40,984 nt of DNA from Lachnospiraceae bacterium. GTDB lineage: Bacteria; Bacillota; Clostridia; Lachnospirales; Lachnospiraceae. The notes beneath the pieces were generated by a model. That model saw nothing but the letters and a program-made list of their open reading frames with translations. It was not told the origin of the DNA and searched no databases. The first letter of the stretch is position 1. Each line of letters starts with the position of its first letter. The stretch covers positions 1 to 40,984 of the forward strand of contig JAFSBX010000089.1 in the NCBI GenBank assembly GCA_017437065.1. Reading direction: 5' to 3'. The translations under genes were made by a program, and so were the position numbers. Below are positions 3,096 through 24,255 of the stretch, piece by piece.

Positions 3096-3422
3096 ATGAT
3101 TTACAACGGTAAAGCAACACAGTGCGAAAGCAAACCAGATTCTGCATACAGTTTATCAGAATCACATAACAATATGAATAAGGAAGTAAACCCAGAGGAA
3201 TATCCAATGGATTCCCAAACATTCATATGTAAATCTAAAAATCAAGAAGTAAAAGTCACAGTAGAATTTCCAACACAATCCAACAAGGTAGCAGAGCAGG
3301 AGTTTATCACAAGACTCAAGGAAATTTACTTAAGAAAAATTAAAATCGGGGCTATGCAACAGAAAGAATCAGCGTTATCATCCCAATTCACAAAGGATAA
3401 GGAGGAAAATATCAATGAGTAA
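3096..3422 (+). CDS. Small protein coupled to the serine recombinase, 108 aa
   Basis: Start chosen at the ATG at 3096, because GGAGG at 3083-3087 stands eight bases upstream; the earlier in-frame ATG (3081) overlaps that Shine-Dalgarno and has none of its own. The last codons overlap the recombinase start by eight bases, so the two are almost certainly translated together. The N-terminal 40 residues are polar and probably disordered; the middle (about 42-80) has the same beta-then-helix pattern with EF..RLKEIY seen in the 61-aa ORF at 2161. A role as a recombinase partner or directionality factor is possible but is only inferred from coupling. Confidence 0.7.
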   Translation: MIYNGKATQCESKPDSAYSLSESHNNMNKEVNPEEYPMDSQTFICKSKNQEVKVTVEFPTQSNKVAEQEFITRLKEIYLRKIKIGAMQQKESALSSQFTKDKEENINE

Positions 3423-5088
3423 AAAAGTAAGAACTTTATTAAGAGTATCATCAAAACAGCAGTTACACGATGATGACATACCGGTACAGAGAGCAGAAGT
3501 AGAGCAATTCATCAATCAGCATCCTGACTGGGAGTTTGACAGAGAATATATTGAAAAAGCAATATCAGCTTACAAAAACAATGTAGATGATAGAGAAGTC
3601 TTAAGGGAAATTATGGAAGATGCGAAACATCATGAATTCGATGTGTTACTTGCGTATTTTTCCGATAGAATCGGTAGGTTGGAAGAATACAGCTTTTATG
3701 TAGCAACTCTAAATCAATTAGGGATAGAGGTTTGGACAATAAAAGAGGGTCAGTTAAAAACAGATACCCGTACGGATAGATTAATGAATTTTCTAAGATT
3801 CTGGCAAAACGAAGGAGAATCAGAAAAAACAAGTAAGCGTGTAAGAGATGCACAGGTAGAATTAGTCAAATCCGGTAAGTTTGTAGGTGGAAAAGCACCT
3901 TTCGGTTACGAACTTGTACCATCAGGCATAATAAGTAATCATGGAAGATTATTAAAGAAGCTTGTAATTGTTGAAAAAGATGCAGAGATTGTAAGAAAGA
4001 TATACAGTTTAGCCATTCATCAAGGTTATGGCTATGATAAAATTGCAAAAACATTAAATGCGGAAGGTATTCCAGCTATTACAACGGATAAATGGAAGGC
4101 ATCAACCATAGCCAGTATCTTAAAGAATCCGATTTACATGGGATATTATGCAATTAACAGAAGAGTCAACCATGGTAGTTTCACAAGATTAGACAGAAGA
4201 AATTGGATATATTCAAAAGAGCAAATCCCAGAGTTAATAATTATAAATCAATGTGATTGGGAAAAAGCACAAGAAATCAGAGAAGCACGGAAGAATAAAA
4301 TTAATGCATCCAAAGAAAAATCTGCAAAGCAGTATGAGGAACAGTACAATGTCCCATTCAGAACAAATGATAAACTATCGTTATTAGGTTTAGCCTATTG
4401 TGGTTATTGTGGTAAGCGATTAAAGAATGGAAGTTACTGCAACCATTGGACTTTAAAATCAACTGGAGAAAAGAAAGTTTCTTTTACCGGAAGATACATA
4501 TGTCCTGAAAAATGCAAAGAACGCTCCTGTTATTCCCAAAGCTACTTAGAAGATATCGTGTTTACAGTAGTAGAAACTTATATGGAGCAATTAAAAAATA
4601 TAAATGTAGTGGAAGAATTGGAGAAAATGCAAAAGCAACAAAGAGAGTCCATTGAAAAAGAATTAAAAGTTATTTCAAAACAACAAAAATCCTTACAACA
4701 AGACATAGAAACTTTAGAAGAAAAAATACCCGAAGCGATTCGAGGAGAATATTATTTCAGTGCTGATAAATTAGCTTCCATAATCAAAGAGAAAGAGCAA
4801 CTATTGAAAGAATTAGACAACCAAAAGAAGCAGATACAAACCAAAATATCCAAATCAACAGTGCAAAGCAGTGAAATGGAAACATTCATCGCTAAAATAC
4901 CAAACTGGAAAGAAGAGTTTCAAAATGCAGACGTAGCAACAAAACAAATGTTACTATCTTCCTTAATAGATAGAATTGAGGTAAAAGATGGAGATATTAA
5001 GATAAAGTTTAAGATACGATTAGAGGATTATTTAGTACACGAATCTATTGATTCCGATACCATTCCGTGTAAACTCTATTTAACGTAA
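3415..5088 (+). CDS. Large serine recombinase (site-specific integrase/excisionase)
   Basis: A 557-aa enzyme that would insert and excise the element by serine-mediated strand exchange. Order of parts: resolvase catalytic domain (about 1-150) with the nucleophile S12 in LLRVSSKQQ and the arginine motif YFSDRIGR near residue 80; recombinase domain (about 160-290) beginning GGKAPFGYE; a zinc-ribbon with C329, C332 and later Cys pairs (ICPEKC, RSC); then a long coiled coil (about 395-490) typical of large serine integrases that controls synapsis and direction. RBS AAGGAGG is nine bases before the ATG. The last 12 or so codons (5048-5088) appear to be supplied by host sleC DNA read on the opposite strand, so the protein made from the circular element would probably have a different C-terminus. 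Confidence 0.93.
   Translation: MSKKVRTLLRVSSKQQLHDDDIPVQRAEVEQFINQHPDWEFDREYIEKAISAYKNNVDDREVLREIMEDAKHHEFDVLLAYFSDRIGRLEEYSFYVATLNQLGIEVWTIKEGQLKTDTRTDRLMNFLRFWQNEGESEKTSKRVRDAQVELVKSGKFVGGKAPFGYELVPSGIISNHGRLLKKLVIVEKDAEIVRKIYSLAIHQGYGYDKIAKTLNAEGIPAITTDKWKASTIASILKNPIYMGYYAINRRVNHGSFTRLDRRNWIYSKEQIPELIIINQCDWEKAQEIREARKNKINASKEKSAKQYEEQYNVPFRTNDKLSLLGLAYCGYCGKRLKNGSYCNHWTLKSTGEKKVSFTGRYICPEKCKERSCYSQSYLEDIVFTVVETYMEQLKNINVVEELEKMQKQQRESIEKELKVISKQQKSLQQDIETLEEKIPEAIRGEYYFSADKLASIIKEKEQLLKELDNQKKQIQTKISKSTVQSSEMETFIAKIPNWKEEFQNADVATKQMLLSSLIDRIEVKDGDIKIKFKIRLEDYLVHESIDSDTIPCKLYLT
5041..5054. other. Candidate attachment-site core at the element/sleC junction
   Basis: GAATC-TATT-GATTC is a short inverted repeat whose centre falls between 5047 and 5048. 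This is the point where sleC coding sequence (read leftward) stops matching what I expect of the family: after the conserved YRNQ codons comes a stop instead of GYDFTIT. Known: serine integrase att sites are imperfect inverted repeats around a dinucleotide core. That the true crossover is here is inferred. Confidence 0.5.
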
Positions 5089-5749
5089 AAGACATAATCG
5101 CAAGAATATTAGCATAAATGGCACTTTCCGGCCAGGTTGCATAAATTTCACAAGAAGCGACATTTTTAATATAGTCTTTATAACGAACATAATAATTTGG
5201 TGCACTTGCATCATCCGGTTCACCATCATGCACAATCACATATTCAGGAATCACAACACGGCTCAGAACGATTTCCCCTGTCTCGTCCATTGGTTTGATT
5301 TCAGCCTCCGGGATTTTCGGGGGATAATCATAATAAAGGGTATGTGGACCGATATTAATATCTTCTTCTGCACCATTGGAAACTTCTAAAGGTGGTAATT
5401 GAATATTCTGTAAGGAAGTAACTTCGGGGAGAATTTCAGAACCTGATACAACGACGGTTTCATAGCCAGGTGCAGATACTCTTATAATATATTCGGCATA
5501 AGGTCTTGGAGAGCCCGGTTCTAAACTATAGGCGATGGGTGGTGCGGGTAATTGGATTACCTGCGTCTGTCCGGAGGAATCGGTGGTAAGTTCCTGAATG
5601 GGGGAATCCGGTGCAGTTTCGTAATAAATCGTTATAGTTGCATTTGGAATCGGAATCAGACCAATCGTGGAAGTTACCTGAATACGCAGCCCGCCTTCTT
5701 CAGGGTTTTCGGTTTGAGCTGCATGAGTAGAAAAAGAATAAACAGACAT
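5045..5749 (-). pseudogene. sleC: SleC-type spore cortex-lytic enzyme, 3' part cut off by the element
   Basis: The 234 visible residues match, from memory, the N-terminal half of clostridial SleC, the lytic enzyme that degrades spore cortex peptidoglycan on germination. An N-terminal carboxypeptidase-regulatory-like beta domain (about 18-105, GGLRIQV...PGYETVVVSG) is followed by the linker (PPKIPEAE) and the start of the catalytic region with IPEYVIVHDGEPDD, NYYVRYKDYIKNV and SFTLNRVYTEWYRNQ. Intact homologues go on with GYDFTIT and further catalytic and peptidoglycan-binding sequence; here a TAG comes directly after Q234. The start ATG has AGAGG seven bases upstream. The reading frame is clean up to the junction, so the break is due to insertion, not decay. 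If the element excises precisely, the gene could be restored. Confidence 0.85.
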
Positions 5750-9701: not shown

Positions 9702-9731
9702 TTGCACAAAGAACAAGGTTAATGGTATAAT
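9702..9731 (+). promoter_or_regulatory. Promoter of the DUF5717/DUF5716 operon
   Basis: TTGCAC (9702-9707), 18-base spacer and TATAAT (9726-9731) with TGG just before it, giving an extended -10. Transcription would start near 9738, which argues against the upstream GTG at 9742 as the start codon of the next gene. Confidence 0.65.
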
Positions 9732-9777
9732 TGTTTTATTCGTGCAGAAAAAATTTTTTAAGGAAAGTGGTGGGTTT

Positions 9778-12700
9778 GTGAATCAGATAATTGACAGATT
9801 ATTAAATGGAGACTTCGACTATGAGAGAGGTTCTCTGGATTTTTCATGCCCCCGACTGGAACTTGTAATAAATAAAGGTGAGATTTTAGAAGACTGTTTT
9901 ACGGTTTACGGATTTCCGAATAAGCTGACAAAGGGATATATAACCACTTCTGATATGAGAATGGAGTGTCTGACACCGGAATTTGCGGGAAGTGAGGAAC
10001 AAATCCGGTATCGTTTTCATTCGGAAGGATTAGAAGAAGGAGCAGTAGTAAAAGGGGAATTTTATGTGATTTCTAATCAGGGAGAATATTATTTGCCATA
10101 TGTAGTCACTGTTGCACATCGTGTACTGGATTCTTCACTGGGAGGAATTAAAAATCTGTTTCATTTTGCCAATCTTGCAAAGTCAAATATGGAAGAGGCA
10201 ATGCAGCTTTTTTACTCACCGGATTTTAAACAAATTCTTACAGGAAATGACAGACAGTATTTAAAGGTGTATGAAGGACTTTCAAAATATAAAGGTAACG
10301 GACAGAATTTAGAAGAGTTTCTTCTTGTGATTAACAAAAAACAGAAGACAGAATATTTATTGGAAGAGTCACACATTCGCGTGGAGAATCCGGAAGGAAT
10401 CAGTGAAGGAAAGATTTCCATTACAAAAAACGGATGGGGCTATACTTTTTTGAATATAGAAACAGAAGGAGACTTTCTTTCCGTAGAGAAAGAAGAGTTA
10501 AGTGATGACGATTTTTTAGGAAATTATTGCAAACTTTCTTATTATATTGATGCGGACAGGCTTCATGCGGGGAAAAATTACGGTTCTATTCGACTTTACA
10601 GTGCGTATGTAGATATTACTGCGGAAGTTGTAGTAATAAACGGTGAAAGTCATCGGATGAAAAAAATAAGAGAACGTGAAAAGAAACGGACGATATGTCA
10701 GATTATGAAATATTATCAGGCATTGCGGTTGAAAAAAATCGGTACGGCTGTCTGGCTTTCTGAAACGCAAAAAGAAGTAGAAAATTTACTGGCTTTTAAT
10801 GAAGATGATATTTCAGCAAGGTTGTTTCAGGCACAGCTCCTGATTACAAAGGAACGGTTTAATGAAGCAAAGTGGATTTTAGACAGGATTAGTAATTACT
10901 ATGCGGAGGAAGTTTCAGAGCCGGTACTTTACAGCTATTACCTGTACCTGACTACATTGTATCACAGAGAGGAACAGTATGTGAACGAAGTTGCTGCCGT
11001 GGTAGAGCAGATTTATCGGGAAAATGAAGGGAATTGGAGAATTGCGTGGCTGCTGTTATATTTATCAGAAGAATACAGTAAAAGTGCTCAGAAAAAATGG
11101 ATTTTTTTGGAAGAACAGTTTCGGTATAATTGCAAAAGTCCGGTAATATATGCGGAAGCAGCAATGATTGTATTGGCGAATCCTGCTATATTGATGAAAC
11201 TTGGGGAATTTGAAATACAGGTACTGAATTATATGGCAAAGCAGGAAGTGTTGACGGCGGAGGTTACGGTACAGGTACGTTATCTTATACAAAATGCGAA
11301 GGAATATAAAGAAAGCCTGTTTTATTTGCTTAAAGTCTGCTATGAAGTGAATCCGAATGATGAGATATTGCTGACTATTTGTACAATATTGATGAAGGGC
11401 GGCCGTAGCGGTAAAAAGTATTTTCCGTGGTATCAGGCGGCTGTAGAGAAGGAAATGCGTATTACAAAATTGTATGAATACTACATGATGTCCATTGATT
11501 TGGAGTATGATAAACCAATCCCCAAAACGGTTGCCATGTATTTTTCTTATCATAGTGATTTGGATTATGAAAGAAATGCATTCCTTTATGCAAATGTGCA
11601 TAAAAACAGAGAAAGTTTTCCGGAAGTATATAAAGCGTATACCATAAATATTGAAAAATTCGTGGAAGAGCAGATTTTAAAAGGACATATAAATCGAAAT
11701 TTAGCTTATCTGTATAAAAATTTACTGACACCCCGGATGTTAAATGAGGAGATGGCAAATGCACTTGCAAAACTTTTGTTTATGCATCAGATAGAAGTAG
11801 AACAAAGGGCAGTCAGATGGGCAGTAGTATACTATGCAAGAATGGCAGAAGAGATAATGTATCCGGTAATAAACGGAAAAGTGCAGATTCCGCTTTATGA
11901 TAATGATTATACATTGCTTTTTGAAGATGATAACAGAAACAGGTATCAGATAAGTACACCATATATTATGGAGAAATTTATGTTACCGGGGAAAGTTGCA
12001 AAAGTGATTGCGCCTTTGGTAACGAACCAACTTGGTTATGCTACATATATATGTGAATGCAGTAATCACTTTGTGGCAATTACGGAAGAAAATCTGGACT
12101 TTTTTTTACAACTGTTGGAAAGTGATAAGGTGGAAAGTGCATATAAAAAAGAAATAGGTCTGAAGCTGGTGCAGTTTTATTATGAGAACGACAGAATCAA
12201 GGAATTGGATTTGTATTTGGAAGAGGTGGAAGCATCTATATTTGACCATAAAGAACGTGGTGAGATGTTGCGTTTTCTTGTTATGCGCGGACTTTACGAA
12301 AAGGCATATGAGTGGATTGGGCAGTATGGATTGGAAGGGATAGATCCGAAAATTCTTGTGAGATTGTGTGACAGGCTTATAGAAAGAGATGAGTACACCG
12401 GAGATGAACTGATGTGTCATGTGATTATGCATGCATTTCGTTATGGAAAATACAATGAAGCAATGCTAAATTATCTTATGGTTTATTTTGAAGGAATGAC
12501 CAAGGAGCTGCGGAATATATGGAAGGCAGCGTTAGCATTTGAACTGGATAATTATGAGATGACAGAAAGGATTCTCAGGCAGATGCTTTATACAGGTTCC
12601 TATGTAGGCGAAAAAATGGAAATCTTCAAAAATTATGTGGCAGAGAATGGAAAAATAGAAATGGAAATGGCATTTCTTGCACAGGGCGCTTATGATTATT

Positions 12701-13353
12701 TTGTAAAAGAAAAAGTGCAGGAAGAGTATCTGTTTGAAGAAATTATGCGACTTTACAGACTTGGAGAAGAAATTCCGTTTATATGCAAGCTGGCATTGAC
12801 CAAGTATTATGCGGAGAACAAAAATGAAAGAGAGTATGTGAAGCGGGATGTTGATAAATGTGATACTTTGGAAAAGTTTTTGACGGAGCTTGTAGAAAGA
12901 GGTATAGCATTAGGGTATTTCAAAGAATATGCAGAGATGTTTCCTATGATGAAACAGTTTGGGGATAAGACGATTATTGAATATCGTGCACATCCGGATG
13001 CGAAAGCAATGCTTCATTATGTAATAGAAAAGGAAGAGGGAGACGTAGGAGAATATCACACGGAGGAATTGAAAAATGTCTTCGGAGGTGTATGTACGAA
13101 AGAATTTGTACTTTTCTTTGGAGAAACATTGCAATATTATATTATAGAAGAACGGGACGGCAAAGGACAGCTGACAGAAAGTAATGCCATTCAGAAGAGT
13201 GATATTATGGAAGAAGAAATGCAGACCAGATTTACCATGATAAATGATATGGTAATCAGCAAGACTCTGCAGGACTATGATACAGTGGATGCACTGTTGG
13301 AGGAATATTTTTTGCAGGAGTATGAAAATGACAGACTGTTTTATCTGCAGTAG
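9778..13353 (+). CDS. DUF5717-family giant helical-repeat protein, 1191 aa
   Basis: Start set at the GTG at 9778 (MNQIIDRLLNGDFDY), which fits the family's N-terminus as I remember it; AAGGA lies 13 bases upstream, rather far. The in-frame GTG at 9742 would be almost leaderless. The first 170 residues are beta-rich (ELVINKGEILEDCFTVYGFP, VVKGEFYVISNQGEYYLPYVV) and resemble a sandwich domain; a second beta stretch is near 210-290. From about 300 on the protein is almost wholly alpha-helical, with tetratricopeptide-like helix pairs. No signal peptide, membrane segment or catalytic motif is visible, so it is probably a large cytoplasmic scaffold. It heads a four-gene operon, 18 bases from an actin/Hsp70-like gene. 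The family assignment is from memory of wording; function is unknown. Confidence 0.82.
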   Translation: MNQIIDRLLNGDFDYERGSLDFSCPRLELVINKGEILEDCFTVYGFPNKLTKGYITTSDMRMECLTPEFAGSEEQIRYRFHSEGLEEGAVVKGEFYVISNQGEYYLPYVVTVAHRVLDSSLGGIKNLFHFANLAKSNMEEAMQLFYSPDFKQILTGNDRQYLKVYEGLSKYKGNGQNLEEFLLVINKKQKTEYLLEESHIRVENPEGISEGKISITKNGWGYTFLNIETEGDFLSVEKEELSDDDFLGNYCKLSYYIDADRLHAGKNYGSIRLYSAYVDITAEVVVINGESHRMKKIREREKKRTICQIMKYYQALRLKKIGTAVWLSETQKEVENLLAFNEDDISARLFQAQLLITKERFNEAKWILDRISNYYAEEVSEPVLYSYYLYLTTLYHREEQYVNEVAAVVEQIYRENEGNWRIAWLLLYLSEEYSKSAQKKWIFLEEQFRYNCKSPVIYAEAAMIVLANPAILMKLGEFEIQVLNYMAKQEVLTAEVTVQVRYLIQNAKEYKESLFYLLKVCYEVNPNDEILLTICTILMKGGRSGKKYFPWYQAAVEKEMRITKLYEYYMMSIDLEYDKPIPKTVAMYFSYHSDLDYERNAFLYANVHKNRESFPEVYKAYTINIEKFVEEQILKGHINRNLAYLYKNLLTPRMLNEEMANALAKLLFMHQIEVEQRAVRWAVVYYARMAEEIMYPVINGKVQIPLYDNDYTLLFEDDNRNRYQISTPYIMEKFMLPGKVAKVIAPLVTNQLGYATYICECSNHFVAITEENLDFFLQLLESDKVESAYKKEIGLKLVQFYYENDRIKELDLYLEEVEASIFDHKERGEMLRFLVMRGLYEKAYEWIGQYGLEGIDPKILVRLCDRLIERDEYTGDELMCHVIMHAFRYGKYNEAMLNYLMVYFEGMTKELRNIWKAALAFELDNYEMTERILRQMLYTGSYVGEKMEIFKNYVAENGKIEMEMAFLAQGAYDYFVKEKVQEEYLFEEIMRLYRLGEEIPFICKLALTKYYAENKNEREYVKRDVDKCDTLEKFLTELVERGIALGYFKEYAEMFPMMKQFGDKTIIEYRAHPDAKAMLHYVIEKEEGDVGEYHTEELKNVFGGVCTKEFVLFFGETLQYYIIEERDGKGQLTESNAIQKSDIMEEEMQTRFTMINDMVISKTLQDYDTVDALLEEYFLQEYENDRLFYLQ

Positions 13354-13371
13354 TAATGAGGGAGAAAGAGT

Positions 13372-14658
13372 ATGCTTAGAAACACCACAAAACTTGTTGT
13401 AGGATATGATCTTGGAGATACTGTATCGCAGATTAGTTACAGTTATCCGGAGAAGGCAGAACCGGAGACTTTGTCTACTGTAGCCGGAGGAGAAAATTAT
13501 AATATTCCCACCATACTTGCGAAACGGGCGAATGTAAACCAATGGTTTTACGGAAAAGATGCATTAAAAGCAGCAAAGGAAGGGGAGGGTGTTTTAGTAG
13601 AGAATCTGGTAAGTCTTGCAAGGACAGGAGAGCCGGTTACAATAGAAGGAAATACATTTGAACCGGCCGCCATGCTTGCACTTTTTATGAAAAGAACCAT
13701 GTCCCTTTTCGCTATGGTTGCACCGATAGAAAAGATAGAAGTATTTGTGGTAACGGTAGATAAACTGGACCGTGTTATGGTGGAAATCCTCAACAGAGCC
13801 GTGGCAGGAATCGGACTGAAAACAGACAAAATCTATTTTCAGTCACATATGGAAAGCTTTTATTATTATATGATTTCCCAACCCAGAGAGTTATGGACTT
13901 ATCAGGTACTTTTATATGATTTTGTTGGAGAATATCTGAAAACTTATCGTTTGGAATGTAATAAAAGAACGACGCCGATTGTAGTTTTTATTGAAACAAA
14001 ACACTTTGAGGCGATGGAAAGGAAAGAACTTCCGAAGGAAGAAGCAGAACGGGAAAAAGTATCTGAAAAGTTAGATGAAAAGTTTCTGGATATAGTAGAA
14101 GAAACCGGAAGAGAACGGGTAGTTTCTTCGGCCTATTTAATAGGGGAAGGATTTCAGGGAGACTGGGCAAAACAATCTTTAAAAGCTTTGTGCAGAAACA
14201 AAAGAGTATTTCAGGGAAACAATCTGTACAGTAAGGGAGCCTGTTTCAGCGGACTGGAAAAAATTCATCCCAGTGAAAACGGGAAAGCATATGTTTTTTT
14301 GGGAAATGAGAAATTGAAATCCAACATAGGAATGAAGGTTTTAAGACAGGGAGAGGAGTCCTATCTTGCCTTGCTGGATGCGGGAATTAACTGGTTTGAA
14401 GCAGTTCGTGAATGTGAATTTATACTGGAAAGTGGTAACACGGTTTCTATATTGATTACGCCCCTAAATGGGAAACAGATACGGGAGATGGTGTTACATA
14501 TGGACGGACTTTTGGAGCGGCCGGAAAAGACCACACGGATTCATATGAAGATTTGTATGAATGGTGAACATAAGGCAGTTGTAACGCTTACGGATATGGG
14601 ATTCGGTGAATTATTTCCTGCTTCAGGACAGATGTGGGAAGAGGAATTTGAAGTTTAG
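13372..14658 (+). CDS. DUF5716-family actin/Hsp70-fold protein
   Basis: A 428-aa protein with traces of the actin-like ATPase fold. Seen: a phosphate-1-like loop GYDLGDT (11-17), a region LLYDFVGEYLKTYRL (180-193) where Hsp70 and actin have the glycine-rich phosphate-2 loop, and LIGEGFQGDW (256-265) plus GNNLYSKGACFSG (282-294), which look like the adenosine motif and following helix. The phosphate-2 glycines are not kept, so nucleotide hydrolysis is doubtful even if binding persists. The C-terminal third (about 300-428) is beta-rich, as in an Hsp70 substrate domain. A strong ribosome site (GGGAGAAAGAG) precedes ATG. It lies between the giant DUF5717 protein and a helical-repeat protein. The fold call is an inference; the role is unknown. 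Confidence 0.78.
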   Translation: MLRNTTKLVVGYDLGDTVSQISYSYPEKAEPETLSTVAGGENYNIPTILAKRANVNQWFYGKDALKAAKEGEGVLVENLVSLARTGEPVTIEGNTFEPAAMLALFMKRTMSLFAMVAPIEKIEVFVVTVDKLDRVMVEILNRAVAGIGLKTDKIYFQSHMESFYYYMISQPRELWTYQVLLYDFVGEYLKTYRLECNKRTTPIVVFIETKHFEAMERKELPKEEAEREKVSEKLDEKFLDIVEETGRERVVSSAYLIGEGFQGDWAKQSLKALCRNKRVFQGNNLYSKGACFSGLEKIHPSENGKAYVFLGNEKLKSNIGMKVLRQGEESYLALLDAGINWFEAVRECEFILESGNTVSILITPLNGKQIREMVLHMDGLLERPEKTTRIHMKICMNGEHKAVVTLTDMGFGELFPASGQMWEEEFEV

Positions 14659-14672
14659 TAAAGGAGACGGAT

Positions 14673-15506
14673 GTGGGCAGAGTTGTATTATGCATTGGAA
14701 AAAGAGCAGAAAATCCATATTTTTTCGATAAAACATGTCAAAATATATACTCTATAGAAGAACTGTGCTATGTATTCGGTGAAAATGCCTATCTGTTGGA
14801 TGAAGATATTGTGGATAAATGGCTGGTGAAATGGATAGAAGATGAGTGTAAACTGACAGAGCTGGCAAGGAATCTGTATACAATGCTTAATCAAAAAGTA
14901 TCCGCAGTAGCTTTTGTCGGCACAATTTTAGAGTATACAGGCTATTTTTCAAAAGAAAAAATAATGCAGATAGAAGCCGTACTGAAAAATGGTAAAAATT
15001 TAAGTCTGTTTGAGAGAAAGAAGGCAAAAGCAGATTATTTGGTAAAGCGCAAAAAGTTTGCTTTGGCAGTTACAGAATATGACAGTCTTATTAAGGAACT
15101 GGAAGGGCAGGATCCGGTGCTTTTGGCGAAAGTGCGGCATAATAAAGGGGTAGCACAAACAGGCCTGTTTGCTTATGAGTATGCTTCGGGAGAATTTTTG
15201 AAAGCATATGAGCTTAGTGGGAGTGAAGAAGACTATATGGCATATCTGGCAGCAAAAAGAATGTATATGGAAGATCAGGATTATATTCGTTTTATGTCAG
15301 AGCATACAGAAGGATATGAAATTTCGCTTGTGCTGGAGAAACAGATTAATAAAATTCTGGAACAGTGGCAGACAGCACCGGAACGGGAGCACATGGATGT
15401 GCTGTTTGATTATAAAGAAAATGGAAACAGAAATCTTTATTACAGGGAAGTGGAGAAATTAATTAACGAATTAAAGCAGGATTACAGAGAATGTGTAACA
15501 AATTAG
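14673..15506 (+). CDS. Hypothetical helical-repeat protein, 277 aa
   Basis: Start is the GTG at 14673 with AAGGAG about seven bases upstream; the ATG two bases before it is out of frame and stops soon. Residues 1-90 start beta-alpha (RVVLCIGKRAENPYFF, IYSIEELCYVF) and then become helical; residues about 110-215 read as three tetratricopeptide-like helix pairs (AKADYLVKRKKFALAVTEYDSLI, KVRHNKGVAQTGLFAYEYASGEFLKAYEL broken over two helices). No membrane segment or catalytic motif. I do not recognise the family. It sits 14 bases after the DUF5716 gene and 28 before the coiled-coil gene, so it is a core member of the four-gene operon and may be an adaptor. Confidence 0.7.
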   Translation: MGRVVLCIGKRAENPYFFDKTCQNIYSIEELCYVFGENAYLLDEDIVDKWLVKWIEDECKLTELARNLYTMLNQKVSAVAFVGTILEYTGYFSKEKIMQIEAVLKNGKNLSLFERKKAKADYLVKRKKFALAVTEYDSLIKELEGQDPVLLAKVRHNKGVAQTGLFAYEYASGEFLKAYELSGSEEDYMAYLAAKRMYMEDQDYIRFMSEHTEGYEISLVLEKQINKILEQWQTAPEREHMDVLFDYKENGNRNLYYREVEKLINELKQDYRECVTN

Positions 15507-15534
15507 CCTGCAGGCACACGGGAGGAAGCGGAGA

Positions 15535-16737
15535 ATGAATTTAGTGCAAAAACTGATGTGGTGGAAAAAGAAAAAATCCATTTCTGAAGAAGTTGAATAT
15601 GTTGATGAGAATGAAGAAAGTTGGGAAGAGCCGGAAGTACTTGACAGAAAACAGTTAGATATCAGAAAAGAAGAAGACAGAGAACGATACCTTCGTACCT
15701 GTTGTGAGCAGATTACAGATGCTTCCAAAGAAATGGAAAATCTGACATATGAATATAGTCTGGTTACTTCTTATTTAAAAGATATTGAAGAAATTGAGGC
15801 ACTTCCTTCAGAACAAAGAAGGGAACTGAATGAATTTGCGGAAAAAATAGTAAATCTGGAAAAAATACAGCAGAGCTATACAAAAGGTGCCAAAAGAATT
15901 ACCGATGTGAAATTCCGCCAGATGGAAGCATTGGAAGATGAAGTGCAGGAAGGATATAAAAAGATTCGGGAAGCGGAGGAATACCGGGCATTGGTACGAC
16001 AGGATTTACAGAGACTGGACGGAGAAAGACATGCCTATCATTACCGTAGGGCAGAGCTCCGAACAACTTTGGAAAATGCCAGAGGAATGTCGCAGATTCT
16101 CTTAATTGCGGCAGCAGCCTGTATTTTCATGTTGATAATTCTGCAGGTAGGTCTGGAAATGAATGTAAAAATTGGTTATATGCTTACAGCAGCTTTGGCG
16201 GCAGTGGCAGTTACTTATTTTTATGTACGTTATAGTGATGCAGAAAAGGAATTGCAGCGAGTGAATTCCGGGATTAACCGTTTGATTCTGCTACAGAATA
16301 CTGTAAAAATTCGATATGTAAATAACAAAAATCTGTTGGACTACCTATATATGAAATTTAAAGTGGAGAGTGCTTCTGAATTGGATTTACTTTGGCAGAG
16401 ATATCAGGAAGAGGTTGTGGAGAGGCAGAAGATTGCAGAGACAGAAGAAGAGTACAGTTTTTATCAGAAACAGTTGTTGCATGCTTTATTTCAGTATAAT
16501 CTGAAAGATCCTAATATATGGCTTCATCAGGCAATTGCGATTGTTGATAACAGAGAAATGGTGGAAATCAGACATGAGTTGATTGAAAGAAGACAAAATA
16601 TACGTAAGCAGATGGATTATAACACGGAAGTCGCAAGAAATGCACAGGGGGAAATTAAAGATATTGTAGATAAGTATCCGCAGTACACAAAAGAAATTTC
16701 AAATGTAATATCACAGTATAATAAAGCATTTCCGTAA
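15535..16737 (+). CDS. Two-TM coiled-coil membrane protein, 400 aa
   Basis: Last gene of the DUF5717/DUF5716 operon; GGAGG is eight or so bases upstream of the ATG. The first 45 residues are charged and probably disordered (KKKK followed by acidic residues). About 48-180 is a long charged coiled coil; two hydrophobic segments follow at about 186-205 and 212-230 with a very short connection, and 232-400 is coiled coil again. The topology is therefore a hairpin in the membrane with both long arms on the same side, most likely cytoplasmic. It could anchor the large helical and actin-like partners at the membrane. There is no enzymatic motif and I know no named family. Confidence 0.75.
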   Translation: MNLVQKLMWWKKKKSISEEVEYVDENEESWEEPEVLDRKQLDIRKEEDRERYLRTCCEQITDASKEMENLTYEYSLVTSYLKDIEEIEALPSEQRRELNEFAEKIVNLEKIQQSYTKGAKRITDVKFRQMEALEDEVQEGYKKIREAEEYRALVRQDLQRLDGERHAYHYRRAELRTTLENARGMSQILLIAAAACIFMLIILQVGLEMNVKIGYMLTAALAAVAVTYFYVRYSDAEKELQRVNSGINRLILLQNTVKIRYVNNKNLLDYLYMKFKVESASELDLLWQRYQEEVVERQKIAETEEEYSFYQKQLLHALFQYNLKDPNIWLHQAIAIVDNREMVEIRHELIERRQNIRKQMDYNTEVARNAQGEIKDIVDKYPQYTKEISNVISQYNKAFP

Positions 16738-19278: not shown

Positions 19279-19368
19279 AAATTGTGGGAAAATTAACACC
19301 TAACAAAAAGAAAATTCAGAACTTTGACAGCATTGGAACTATAAGAGGTGTTCAAAAGGAGAAAAAGA

Positions 19369-22300
19369 ATGAAAAACAAGAGAAAAAAAGGAAAGCAGAT
19401 ACTTGTACTGATTTTATCAGTGGCTATGGTACTTGGAACGATGGATATATCATCGTTGAATGCCTTAGCATCGGAAGAGATTGAAAGTGAAGCAATAGTA
19501 GAAAATGAATCGGTGCAAGAGGAAACAACTGAGAGTGAACCGACAGAAGAAACCGAAGAAGAAGCAATCACGGAAAACGAATCAGTAGAAGAAATTGAGG
19601 AAGAAGTAGCAACGGAAAGCGAATTAGCAGAGGAAACCGAAGAAGAAGCAATAATGGAAAACGAATCAGTAGAAGAAACTGAGGAAGAAGTAACACTTGA
19701 AAGCGAATCGGCAAAAGAAACCGAAGAAGAAACAGCAACGGAAAGTGAATCAGTGGAAGAAGAATTTGTGTATCAAAAGACAACTGATGAAATTACAACG
19801 TATGAAGAATGGTACGAACTGTCATCAGTAGAAACCTCGGCACTTCCTGTTGCGTTATTTAGTCTTAAAGATGGCGTGGTAGAGCTGAATTCGGGTACGG
19901 CAACCGCGTGGATTGACCGATTGAATTTATCAGGAACAGAGGAACAGGTAATTAGGGAGTTTTATGATGTTCTGGTAGAAGCTACGGACAATGACGGCGT
20001 AAATGATTATCTGATTGATGATACCTATTTTGGACAAGATAAGCATGAAATTAAAGTGGCAGAGGTGAAAGGAACAGCCACTAACACAAATGAAATTGAT
20101 CAGGCAATGAGCGATGCCTTAGGAAGGTATGGGTCATATATCAGGGCAGCATATGATGCTTTTGATCGTGACCATCCGGAAGTATTCTGGCTGACAGGCT
20201 CTACTGCTTATGGTGCAAGCTGTTCATATGGCATAACAGCACAGAAGGGGTATGCTTATACTGTCACAATTAATTTTACGGTAAAAGGAACACTTAGTAA
20301 CGGGAAAGAATTTGATATGCGTGATGCAGACTTCCAAAGCCAGTCAGCGATTGAAAATGCAATAGTGAACAGAGATAAACGAACGAAAGAGTTATTGTCG
20401 GCAGCCGCAGGGAAGACGACTATGGAAAAACTGCAATATTTTAATCAGCAGTTGACTACAACGAATGAGTATAACACAAGTGCAGATTTAAATAATATCG
20501 GTCATGAATGCAGAGAATGTACAGGTGCGCTTGCAGGAAAAACAGGAACAGAAGGACCGGTATGTGAAGCATATGCAAGGGCATTTAAAGTGCTGTGTGA
20601 TGAGGCAGGGATTCCATGTGTATTAGTAGATGGATATGCCAGAACATCGACATCTGCCTGTGGAGAAGCACATATGTGGAATTATGTTCAGGTAGGAAAG
20701 AACTGGTATGGTGCGGATGTTACATGGAATGATCCGAAAGTTGCCGGAATTTCAGGAGCAATATCAGGGTATGAAAGTGAAAAATGGTTATTAGTAGGTT
20801 CAGATACAGAGATTGGAAGTCTGACATTTATTGAGTCTCATCCGGTAGCAAATCAAGTATCTGTTGGTGGAGTGGCATTTACGAATGGTCCTGCACTGGC
20901 AAAAGAAAAATTTGTTCCTGGTGTGCAATTAGTTCCAACTTTTACCGAAACACCTGTTATTAGTGGAACGTATGGTCAGAAGTTGTCAGAATTGAAGATT
21001 AAAGCAGCAACGACAAGTAGCAATGGTGCTGTCGGTACATGGAAACTGGAAGTATCAGAGGAAGAGTTGACAGAAATTTTGGAGGTAAATACACAGAAGG
21101 AATATACGGTGGTATTTGTACCGGAAGACAAAGAAGCTTACACGGAATATCGAACAACAGTAATTCCTGTCATTTCTCAAAAAGAGATTACAGTGAAGGC
21201 AGAGGATAAAACAAGAAAATATAAAGAAGAAAATCCGAAACTTACGTTTACTTACAATGCTAAGGATTTTGTAGGAAAGGATACGAAAGAAGACCTTGCA
21301 ATTACACTTAAGACAGTAGCTACTTTAGGGTCAGATGTGGGAGATTATGCAATTACAGGAGAATCTACAAGCCAAAACTACAAGGTAACAATAACACCGG
21401 GAGTTTTGAAAATAACACCGGCAGAGACAAACGTTATTGTAGCAGATGGAAAAAGCAATTATAAAAAGACTTACGGAGATACAGAATTTAGACTGGAAGG
21501 TATTCAGGTAGATGGTGAAGGCACTTTGGTTTATCAAGTGACAGAAGGCAAAAATACAGAAGGAAAGTCTAAAGATACAACAGAAATTTTGTCTGTTTCC
21601 GATGAAGGAATAGTAACGATTCATGGTAGTGGAAGTGTAGTTATTGTAGTCGATGTAAAAACGGATAATAATTATAAATCGTCAGGGGCAAAAAAAATTA
21701 CCATTGATGTGGCAAAAAAAGAAATTACCGTAAAAGCAGAGGATCAAACCAAGGTATATGGGGAAGAAAATCCAAAGCTTACATTTACATATGATACGGC
21801 TGAATTAGTAGGAAAGGATACAGTTGCTGATTTAGCGGTAACGCTTAAAACAGAAGCGACAAAGGTATCAGATGTAGGAACCTATAAAATTACAGGTATT
21901 TCTGCAAGTGAAAATTATAGAGTAACAGTAACACCTGCTACGTTAAAAGTTACACAGGCACAGGCAAGTATTACAATTGCAGAAGGAAAGGAACACTATA
22001 AAAAGACCTTTGGAGATGCAGACTTTAAATTAGAAGGTATTCAGACAATTGGTAAAGGTGAAATTAAGTATACCTTGTCAGATGGGAAAGATATAGAAGG
22101 ACAGAAGAAGGCAGAGGAAGATATACTTTCTGTTTTGAAAGATGGTACGGTAGTTATTCAGGGAAGTGGAAGTGTAACAATTACAATAAGCATGGAAGCT
22201 GATAAAAACTACAAGATGGCAGAACCAAAACAGATTACTGTGCAGGTGGCAAGGAGAGAAGGCTTTAATGTTGGTGTATTTGAGCAGGAAACTTATACCG

Positions 22301-24255
22301 GAAAAGCCATAAAACCGGAACCGGCAGTTTATGATGGAAGTTTGGAAAAACAATTGGTAAAGGGAAAAGATTATCGTATTTCCTATAAGAATAATGTAAA
22401 TGCGTATACCTATAAGAAAGGGGAGAGAGGATTTGATGCAAAGAAAGCTCCTCAGATCATTATTACAGGAATAGGAAATTATAGCCAAAAACTGACAGTT
22501 TACTTTACCATTCAGCCGAAAAACCTTTCTGATTTAGAAGATGAGAGCATTATTGCAACGGACATTGTTTTGGAGGCAAACGGTAAAGTGCAGAAAAAAG
22601 TGCCGGTTATTACTTACAATAAAAAGAAATTAACTGGTGTAATAAAACCGACACCGCCAAACAAATTAAAAACAAAGAAAGATTTTATTTACTCATATCC
22701 TGCTTTGGAAGTGGAGGAAACAAAAAATATTGCATTTAAAGAAAAAGGGACATATCAGATTTTGGTAGAGGGAACAGGTAATTACACAGGAAACAGGATA
22801 ATAAATCTGACGATTACCGGAAAAGGAACAAGTATCAGTAAAGCAACTATCAAAAGTATACCAAGTCAGCCATATAATAATGGAAATGATATAGAATTGA
22901 AAGAACAGGACTTGAAGGTAACTGCCAAAATATCCGGAAAGACAAAAACGCTTAAGAAAGATGTGGATTATACGGTAAGTTATGAAAATAATAAAGAGAT
23001 TGGAACAGCAACGGTTATTATTACCGGAAAAGGAGAGTTTGCAGGAACAAAGAAAGCAACCTTTAAGATTACAGGAGCTTCTATTGCTAAGGCAAATGTA
23101 ACAGGACTAAAAAATAAGGTGTATAACGGTAAAGAGCAGACGCAGAAGTTGAACCTGACTCTGACGACCAAAAAGGGAAGCGGAAAGAATGCAGTAACAA
23201 CAACCACTACATTAGTAGAAGGAAAACACTTTGAAGTAGCTTATACGAATAATGTAAAAGTTGGAACTGCAAAAGTAACCATCAAAGGAATTGGTGCTTA
23301 TACAGGAACGCTCAAAAAGACATTTAAGATTACACCATATGATTTTAAGGGTGAAACAGATGCAAACGGAAATAGTAAGAAGGGAAGCAGTTTGTCAGAA
23401 GCAAACGGTCTTTTGAAAATGAAAGACGGAGAACTTTCCGTGAAATATGTAAAGGGTGGTTGTAAGCCTGACGTACAGCTTTTCTTTAATGGTACACAGT
23501 TGACTGCAGGAAAGGATTATACAATCAGCTATTCCAATAATAAGGCAGTTACTACTGAAAAACTTAAGAAACAAAAGAAAATTCCTATGATTACAATTCA
23601 AGGAAAAGGTAATTTTAAAGGCAGCTTCAAGAAAGCATTTACGATTATTTCAAGAAGCTTGGATGATAAGGAACTGTCTGTAACCATGACAGCAGTGGAT
23701 AAGGTAGTAAACTATAATAAAGCAGGCGGTTATATCAGCAAACCGGTGCTTACGGATGCAGATGGTAAGGTTTTGAAAGAAGGAACGGATTATACAAAAC
23801 CAATTTATACTACGACAGATGACATGGGAAATGTAGTTACACTCACAAACAAAAGTAAAGGAGTAGGAGTGGGAAAAGTAATTACCGTATCTGTGAATGG
23901 AAAAGGTGCTTATACGGGAGAGAATTTCACTACGACATATCGGATTACAGCGAAGAATTTTGGTGGTGTGAAAGTGCAGTCTATAAAGAAAAATTACACA
24001 GGGAAGGAAGTAAGCTTAAGTGCAAAAGATTTTGTGTTTTCTGAGGGTGTAAACAAAGGAAAAAGCAAGGTAACCATAGGAAGTGGGAAGAATACGAAAG
24101 AGCTTGTCTATGGAAAGGACTTCGAAATTGTGGAAGGAAGCTATAAGAACAATCTGAAGAAAGGGACTGCAAGTGTGACTTTAAGAGGTCTTGGAGAATA
24201 TGGCGGAACGAAGACAATCAAATTCAGCATAGGTGCCAGAGAAATGTTCTGGTAG
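19369..24255 (+). CDS. Giant secreted repeat protein with transglutaminase-like domain
   Basis: 1628 aa; the ATG at 19369 has AAAAGGAG upstream. A Sec signal peptide (1-34: basic MKNKRKKGKQ, hydrophobic ILVLILSVAMVLG, cleavage near ALA-S) is followed by five acidic 14-residue repeats (60-129). A transglutaminase/protease-like domain follows at about 170-500 with the triad C399 (GPVCEAYAR), H435 (EAHMWNY) and D450 (GADVTWND). Next come two 179-residue units (607-785, 786-964), each starting ITVKAED and carrying an MBG/YDG-like half, then about seven Ig-like repeats with patterns such as Y.GK, V.GKDY.ISY.NN and I.G.G.Y.G to the end. There is no LPXTG, S-layer or choline-binding motif, and the last residues are just GAREMFW, so how it is held at the cell is unclear. 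Probably an extracellular adhesin or crosslinking enzyme. Confidence 0.85.
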   Translation: MKNKRKKGKQILVLILSVAMVLGTMDISSLNALASEEIESEAIVENESVQEETTESEPTEETEEEAITENESVEEIEEEVATESELAEETEEEAIMENESVEETEEEVTLESESAKETEEETATESESVEEEFVYQKTTDEITTYEEWYELSSVETSALPVALFSLKDGVVELNSGTATAWIDRLNLSGTEEQVIREFYDVLVEATDNDGVNDYLIDDTYFGQDKHEIKVAEVKGTATNTNEIDQAMSDALGRYGSYIRAAYDAFDRDHPEVFWLTGSTAYGASCSYGITAQKGYAYTVTINFTVKGTLSNGKEFDMRDADFQSQSAIENAIVNRDKRTKELLSAAAGKTTMEKLQYFNQQLTTTNEYNTSADLNNIGHECRECTGALAGKTGTEGPVCEAYARAFKVLCDEAGIPCVLVDGYARTSTSACGEAHMWNYVQVGKNWYGADVTWNDPKVAGISGAISGYESEKWLLVGSDTEIGSLTFIESHPVANQVSVGGVAFTNGPALAKEKFVPGVQLVPTFTETPVISGTYGQKLSELKIKAATTSSNGAVGTWKLEVSEEELTEILEVNTQKEYTVVFVPEDKEAYTEYRTTVIPVISQKEITVKAEDKTRKYKEENPKLTFTYNAKDFVGKDTKEDLAITLKTVATLGSDVGDYAITGESTSQNYKVTITPGVLKITPAETNVIVADGKSNYKKTYGDTEFRLEGIQVDGEGTLVYQVTEGKNTEGKSKDTTEILSVSDEGIVTIHGSGSVVIVVDVKTDNNYKSSGAKKITIDVAKKEITVKAEDQTKVYGEENPKLTFTYDTAELVGKDTVADLAVTLKTEATKVSDVGTYKITGISASENYRVTVTPATLKVTQAQASITIAEGKEHYKKTFGDADFKLEGIQTIGKGEIKYTLSDGKDIEGQKKAEEDILSVLKDGTVVIQGSGSVTITISMEADKNYKMAEPKQITVQVARREGFNVGVFEQETYTGKAIKPEPAVYDGSLEKQLVKGKDYRISYKNNVNAYTYKKGERGFDAKKAPQIIITGIGNYSQKLTVYFTIQPKNLSDLEDESIIATDIVLEANGKVQKKVPVITYNKKKLTGVIKPTPPNKLKTKKDFIYSYPALEVEETKNIAFKEKGTYQILVEGTGNYTGNRIINLTITGKGTSISKATIKSIPSQPYNNGNDIELKEQDLKVTAKISGKTKTLKKDVDYTVSYENNKEIGTATVIITGKGEFAGTKKATFKITGASIAKANVTGLKNKVYNGKEQTQKLNLTLTTKKGSGKNAVTTTTTLVEGKHFEVAYTNNVKVGTAKVTIKGIGAYTGTLKKTFKITPYDFKGETDANGNSKKGSSLSEANGLLKMKDGELSVKYVKGGCKPDVQLFFNGTQLTAGKDYTISYSNNKAVTTEKLKKQKKIPMITIQGKGNFKGSFKKAFTIISRSLDDKELSVTMTAVDKVVNYNKAGGYISKPVLTDADGKVLKEGTDYTKPIYTTTDDMGNVVTLTNKSKGVGVGKVITVSVNGKGAYTGENFTTTYRITAKNFGGVKVQSIKKNYTGKEVSLSAKDFVFSEGVNKGKSKVTIGSGKNTKELVYGKDFEIVEGSYKNNLKKGTASVTLRGLGEYGGTKTIKFSIGAREMFW
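19546..19755 (+). repeat. Five 42-bp tandem repeats coding an acidic stalk
   Basis: Five in-frame copies encode 14-residue units of the form EETEEE-AxxENES-V/A, alternating between two subtypes (ENESV and ESELA/ESESA). The alternation suggests growth by duplication of an 84-bp pair. Such repeats can change in number by slippage or recombination. Confidence 0.85.
21187..22260 (+). repeat. Two 537-bp direct repeats inside the giant gene
   Basis: Two consecutive units of exactly 537 bp (21187-21723 and 21724-22260) encode 179 residues each, both starting ITVKAED and ending VA(K/R)(K/R)E. They differ at many sites, so the duplication is old, but the equal length indicates selection on the fold. 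Each has an MBG-like half and a half starting with a KKT(Y/F)GD motif. Confidence 0.8.

Follow-up and report, generated by a model that had tools for sequence, protein, structure and literature searches.

The window considered here is a stretch of 40,984 nucleotides from a Lachnospiraceae bacterium (assembly GCA_017437065.1, contig JAFSBX010000089.1, positions 1–40,984, forward strand), and it carries a four-gene operon (g1–g4) whose second product is predicted, from its sequence and modelled structure, to be a lidless Hsp70 that is unable to hydrolyse ATP. Around this protein, the operon encodes a very large protein (g1), an adaptor of the tetratricopeptide repeat (TPR) type (g3), and a membrane protein (g4). 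We propose, giving the idea a little less than even weight, that the operon specifies a membrane-tethered pseudo-Hsp70 co-chaperone platform, which would act in the manner of yeast Ssz1 without being a member of the ribosome-associated complex (RAC). The kinship of the operon with a multi-Hsp70 gene set found in other families of the order is well supported.

All four open reading frames lie on the plus strand within 9778–16737 (about 7 kb), with intergenic gaps of 18, 14, and 28 bp and a Shine–Dalgarno-like sequence before each gene.

9703..9731, plus strand: promoter-like site TGCACA-17-TATAAT (consensus scan; suggestive only)
9778..13353 (reading frame open from 9742), plus strand: g1, DUF5717_N and DUF5717, 1191 amino acids (Pfam, AlphaFold2 model, fold matches)
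13372..14658, plus strand: g2, DUF5716, lidless Hsp70 fold with a nucleotide domain and a beta-type substrate-binding domain (SBD-beta), predicted pseudo-Hsp70 (Pfam, tree, motif counts, model, fold matches)
14673..15506, plus strand: g3, TPR-type adaptor, 277 amino acids (alignment, TPR matches, class search)
15535..16737, plus strand: g4, two transmembrane segments, likely coiled coil, 400 amino acids (hydropathy, alignment, weak keratin-type coiled-coil matches)

The promoter-like site is suggestive only, because such matches are no commoner in the region than in shuffled sequence. The GTG at 9778 is a likelier start for g1 than the listed 9742, since a ribosome-binding sequence lies there and the resulting length agrees with that of relatives.

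A predicted inactive Hsp70 in a conserved operon

The g2 protein belongs to the DUF5716 family (PF18980, expectation value (E) 4e-109; 364.6 bits against a cut-off of 34.7). Its predicted structure, with a mean predicted local distance difference test score (pLDDT) of 91.9, adopts the Hsp70/ASKHA fold, comprising the nucleotide domain and SBD-beta without an alpha-helical lid. The last element of the model is an SBD-beta strand at residue 427 of 428, so the lid of an ATPase Hsp70 is missing, and Ssz1 is among the tied best structural matches, level with the best DnaK matches. The confident model and these matches bear out the ASKHA fold that an earlier note, made from the sequence, had proposed for g2, and both fold and descent make the protein an Hsp70.

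Descent was examined in an unrooted tree of 67 proteins, comprising 18 DUF5716 proteins, four DnaK proteins, and the Hsp70s of the related gene sets described below (14 Hsp70-A, 14 Hsp70-B, 10 Hsp70-C, and 7 Hsp70-D); L107 and several copies cut by the ends of their stretches were left out. DUF5716 forms a single clade (support 100/98) that is sister to the Hsp70-B proteins of family f76 (100/100), and Hsp70-A, -C, -D, and DnaK each form one clade. The catalytic lysine and the phosphate-2 loop GGGT are retained in all Hsp70-A (14/14), Hsp70-C (10/10), Hsp70-D (7/7), and DnaK (4/4) proteins, and in none of the DUF5716 (0/18) or Hsp70-B (0/14) proteins; the degenerate ATPase state is therefore common to both kinds of operon. 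The phosphate-1 aspartate is still present in 18/18 DUF5716 proteins, while the two threonines are found in none (0/18).

The g2 protein matched none of the MreB, FtsA, and Alp profiles of Pfam at E up to 1, and an actin-like or cytoskeletal filament identity was rejected, as tree and structure place the protein specifically with Hsp70. The earlier note had envisaged a cytoskeletal or chaperone-type assembly; the chaperone half is supported by the Hsp70s and GrpE-like factor of the relatives, whereas the actin half is not supported by family profiles, the protein being an Hsp70 by tree and structure and lacking the ATPase residues. A structural role for the operon is nevertheless possible and is weighed below.

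The g1 protein matches PF18984 (E 0) and PF18983 (E 5.7e-95) with 1041.8 and 318.5 bits against a curated cut-off of 25, and is thus a DUF5717/DUF5717_N protein; like g2, it lies far above the cut-offs of families for which Pfam names no function. Its AlphaFold2 model (pLDDT 86.3, predicted template modelling score 0.57) and fold matches reveal two PapD/ASH-like beta sandwiches (residues about 20–124 and 190–290), followed by a long alpha-solenoid carrying a beta insertion and by a C-terminal beta element, in agreement with the beta-plus-helical-repeat build first read from the sequence. A sequence search against solved structures returned no relative of g1, and the listed matches from a viral fold library were all of the Ig/BACON or TPR type. 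In structure searches, tandem PapD-type sandwiches like those of g1 were found in the ASH/PapD-like proteins of the ciliary central apparatus and in CEP192, and pilus chaperones match these domains equally well. The solved structure of the central apparatus also has two chains, presumably its Hsp70, that match g2. The resemblance lies at the level of the fold, at less than 20% identity, and gives no evidence for homologous assemblies.

Neither g3 nor g4 matches a Pfam family at E up to 1. The g3 proteins share a conserved N-terminal segment (YS.EELCY...NA.LLD), and although the window copy has no Pfam TPR match, TPRs are clear in longer homologues (TPR_2 at 5e-26 and 2.2e-21) and the family profile matches TPR chains, which makes g3 a TPR protein, as its predicted helical repeats had suggested. 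Hydropathy places two transmembrane helices in the middle of g4 (residues 188–206 and 213–231), flanked by mostly charged helical arms that likely form a coiled coil; the keratin-type coiled-coil matches are weak. The membrane coiled coil with two transmembrane segments described by the earlier note is supported.

Conservation of the operon is well above chance, and the operon counts as a core trait in Lachnospiraceae. Of 248 genomes of the family, 246 contain DUF5716 (a single match in 244, two in the other 2), and in one of the two genomes without it, G359, g1 runs off the end of a contig. Gene order was compared in 91 loci (41 short and 50 longer; L001 is the window itself, L014 was dropped for a weak match, and the sets may share species), and the genes present always follow the order g1-g2-g3-g4 on one strand. 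All four genes occur in 44 of the 50 longer loci, five of the other six being cut by contig ends; g1-g2-g3 are found in 41/41 short loci, with the start of g4 also visible in 26 of them. The shared strand, short gaps, and conserved block support the reading of the four genes as one operon, and they stay together across the family, with one exception at g1 in the 50 loci. The flanks vary between genera. The alignment (A4) comprised the window and 65 of 69 non-redundant sequences, L001, L041, L072, and L109 being left out. For one pair, the window and the 80%-identical relative L053, the ratio of nonsynonymous to synonymous substitution rates is 0.06 for g2 and 0.08 for g3, both of which are under purifying selection; in g1 and g4, silent sites are saturated and the proportions of nonsynonymous differences are 0.13 and 0.11. 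A sample of 293 genomes from across the class had 13 above the DUF5716 cut-off, all of them Lachnospiraceae, and the strong g1 matches were likewise confined. Spread beyond the order was considered and rejected, as the weak matches there (DUF5716 in G275, g1 in two genomes, and, for g3, its TPR region alone) seem to reflect chance or generic TPR similarity.

A related multi-Hsp70 gene set in other families

Relatives of the operon were sought in 148 genomes of the order, comprising 32 Lachnospiraceae, 35 genomes of other families with DUF5717, and 81 without it; DUF5717 is thus found in 32/32 Lachnospiraceae and in 35 genomes outside the family. Stretches from 20 of these 35 genomes were examined, together with 12 further downstream flanks. 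Fourteen of the 20 stretches share one arrangement, in which g1, present as a split or fused gene or recognised by its solenoid half alone, stands ahead of Hsp70-A, a GrpE-like gene, and Hsp70-B. The remaining six comprise four f77 loci with g1 as the sole gene of the set, one stretch that stops after Hsp70-A, and L122, which holds g1 and Hsp70-B only. The 12 downstream flanks contain Hsp70-C and Hsp70-D, with g3 in 9/12, g4 in 5/12, and neither in two, and in some of them the next gene is one that we take to be valS-like. The g3 and g4 profiles built from Lachnospiraceae had given nothing convincing elsewhere, mostly because these genes lay outside the initial stretches; they were seen in the added flanks.

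Pfam recognises HSP70 in Hsp70-A, -B, and -C of L105 and GrpE in the exchange factors of L105 and L103 (E 3e-13 and 5.4e-12), and the Hsp70-D copies were assigned by tree and motif. Hsp70-B also matches DUF5716_C, at 1.5e-26 in L105 and at 3.4e-74 in L103, where HSP70 is unmatched. The GrpE-like gene (E up to 1e-15) occurs in 34/35 non-Lachnospiraceae genomes with DUF5717, in 0/81 without it, and in 0/32 Lachnospiraceae, a linkage with a Fisher p of about 1e-28, uncorrected for shared descent; both searches covered 148 genomes, whose labels agree wherever they were listed. In the f77 genomes G568, G575, and G545, g1, Hsp70-A, the GrpE-like gene, Hsp70-B, Hsp70-C, and Hsp70-D are all present, dispersed over two to four contigs. 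Genome G538 of another family (L122 and L166) has kept g1 and Hsp70-B without Hsp70-A, -C, -D, or the GrpE-like gene, and probably represents a separate reduction to g1 and a pseudo-Hsp70.

The genome of the window contains two Hsp70-type matches, one DnaK and a 348-residue protein that we take to be of the MreB type, and no operon Hsp70. Other Lachnospiraceae have additional Hsp70s, with two to eight matches per genome in 30 genomes. Twenty paralogues from 15 genomes (excluding each genome's principal DnaK, some of the fragments, and matches of the MreB type) all scored best on the DnaK profile, at 286–979 bits, compared with 921–1362 bits for operon members on their own profiles, and none was Hsp70-A, -C, or -D. 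Since the fuller set is found in f76, the nearest family, and in most of the other families that carry g1, the Lachnospiraceae operon would be a reduced form, in which the missing Hsp70 ATPases and GrpE-like factor were presumably lost.

Directly 5' of the split g1 of four f77 loci (L115, L117, L118, and L121) lies a gene for a protein of 408–432 amino acids, of which the L117 copy reads as membrane segments and a coiled coil; family matches are weak, with one of the four just above the cut-off (Nsp1_C, L121).

A putative co-chaperone platform and its alternatives

Ssz1 is described as binding ATP without hydrolysing it, lacking a lid, holding a built-in peptide, and relaying nascent chains to the active Hsp70 Ssb (PMC7083937). 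These properties and the similar predicted build of DUF5716 led us to propose the membrane-tethered platform. The products of g1–g4 may assemble into one complex, in which g4 would hold the platform at the inner membrane face by a hairpin of its two transmembrane helices, the helical arms on either side probably both lying in the cytoplasm, g1 would serve as a large scaffold and client-binding arm through its PapD/ASH-type domains and alpha-solenoid, and g3 would act as the TPR adaptor. The g2 protein, running no ATPase cycle, would use its lidless beta-type substrate domain to hold either a client or a built-in peptide, and might hand clients to active Hsp70s. In the related families, the active work would be done by the co-encoded Hsp70 ATPases and GrpE-like exchange factor, and in Lachnospiraceae the housekeeping DnaK system may take over.

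Like g2 as predicted from its sequence and model, the Ssz1 of the yeast RAC (Ssz1–Zuo1, working with Ssb) is a lidless Hsp70 with a nucleotide domain and SBD-beta, for which no ATPase cycle is expected. RAC contains a J-domain partner, whereas none was matched among g1–g4, to which that search was confined, and the operon therefore falls outside RAC; RAC has a ribosome anchor in contrast to the membrane segment of the operon, and no homology as a system is claimed. We know of no RAC counterpart of g1. The DnaK–DnaJ–GrpE system shares the Hsp70 ancestry, and the gene sets of the relatives hold canonical Hsp70s and a GrpE-domain protein; the Lachnospiraceae operon, however, lacks an ATPase Hsp70 and an exchange factor, and adds the giant scaffold, TPR-type adaptor, and membrane coiled coil.

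Several observations weigh against the proposed platform. No J-domain, which RAC needs, was matched in g1–g4 (Pfam, E up to 1) or in the nine proteins scanned from relatives, and the lack of active Hsp70s and of the exchange factor might reflect abandonment of the chaperone role in Lachnospiraceae, or a gain of these genes by the other families. The membrane anchor is not constant there, since g4 occurs in only five of the 12 downstream flanks, and neither g3 nor g4 adjoins g1 and Hsp70-B in G538. Within Lachnospiraceae, G355 lacks both DUF5716 and g1, and L072 carries an amino-acid ATP-binding cassette (ABC) transporter in the place of g1. In the unrooted tree, Hsp70-B is not one clade (L114 falls elsewhere) and several of its rows carry long-branch and composition warnings, and Hsp70-B of f76 has no PF00012 match. 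An htpG-type (Hsp90) gene lies 5' of the operon in 23 of the 51 loci used for neighbour counts (flanks of L053–L102 and the window, some too short to show purB or htpG) and is recognised as HSP90 by Pfam in L056, but its support is weak because it is a separate transcription unit in the loci inspected.

The chief rival to the platform, which we judge unlikely, is an ATP-independent structural scaffold at the membrane that serves cell shape, the envelope, or division, with the Hsp70 fold as an inert component. Against it, g1 and the g2 homologue adjoin active Hsp70s and a GrpE-like factor in other families, the PapD-like domains of g1 fit pilus chaperones just as well, and g2 matches no actin-type polymer family. 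Considerably less probable is a regulatory Hsp70-like module for an envelope or surface trait, for which StkA of Myxococcus xanthus provides the precedent: StkA is a specialised Hsp70-like protein within a small gene group, a negative regulator of exopolysaccharide that the authors liken to Ssz1, but its partners StkB (SCP2-like) and StkC (PhaE-like) are unlike g1, g3, and g4 (PMC4319316). The commonest neighbours of the operon are purB, purF-type, and htpG genes, with no constant regulator or envelope enzyme, an objection qualified by the peptidoglycan-binding-type gene within reach in 32/51 loci. That gene (peptidoglycan-binding/SpoIID-type, mostly upstream), and genes several kb 3' of the operon in L134 that we take to be of the sporulation type, could also hint at a sporulation system, but DUF5716 is kept in 32 of the 33 Lachnospiraceae genomes without a spoIIID match (100 searched), and this reading is largely refuted and very improbable. 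An anti-phage or conflict system, suggested by the resemblance of a large solenoid and membrane coiled coil to some defence layouts, is the least credible of all, and a phage origin was likewise rejected, as PADLOC and PHROGs gave no match for g1–g4 at E up to 0.01 and DUF5716 is near-universal (246/248) and mostly single-match.

Extended across the order, the platform proposal becomes more doubtful: an undescribed chaperone machine, confined in our samples to one order of Clostridia, might combine an ASH/PapD scaffold, an inactive-Hsp70 hub, a TPR adaptor, often a membrane anchor, three Hsp70 ATPases, and its own long GrpE-type factor; Lachnospiraceae would have shed the ATPases but retained the dead-Hsp70 core, nearly universal among them, as an ATP-independent membrane platform. 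The literature searched, which left most subscription journals outside its coverage, held no description of the operon system; DUF5717 was unmentioned and DUF5716 appeared, by title, only in an unrelated context, in keeping with the earlier statement that no function is described, and no separate roles have been assigned to the members in what was found.

Genomic surroundings and implications

On the 5' side of the operon lie a divergent gene and a second gene, which we take from sequence to be a GntR-type regulator and an ABC gene, and on the 3' side purC and purB (Pfam), with a promoter-like site preceding purC; these are judged to be neighbourhood, outside the operon proper. The same judgement applies to purB (3' of the operon in 35/51 loci) and the htpG-type gene in the other genomes.

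Elsewhere in the window, a large serine recombinase (3415–5088, plus strand) overlaps the 3' end of a 234-residue gene (5045–5749, minus strand) that matches just residues 6–236 of a 423-residue peptidoglycan-binding/SpoIID-type protein encoded near g1 in relatives, and the remainder of that protein was not found in the genome of the window; a recombinase element seems to have entered a sporulation-type gene here (3415–5749). In several of 100 Lachnospiraceae, G308, G307, G365, G380, G386, and G324 among them, spoIIID is split into two partial matches (model positions about 1–42 and 34–79), as if broken at one place by skin-like elements. A 1635-residue protein with MBG_2 and transglutaminase-like domains (19348–24255) is probably a surface protein.

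Lachnospiraceae rank among the dominant bacteria in the mammalian gut, and the roughly 7 kb unit of four genes described here belongs to the core of nearly all members examined, with no assigned role found. Its tie to a multi-Hsp70 gene set offers a testable starting point for the function of the operon, and in this lineage, where the pseudo-Hsp70 hub occurs in the absence of motor Hsp70s, what inactive Hsp70s do in bacteria can be tested directly.

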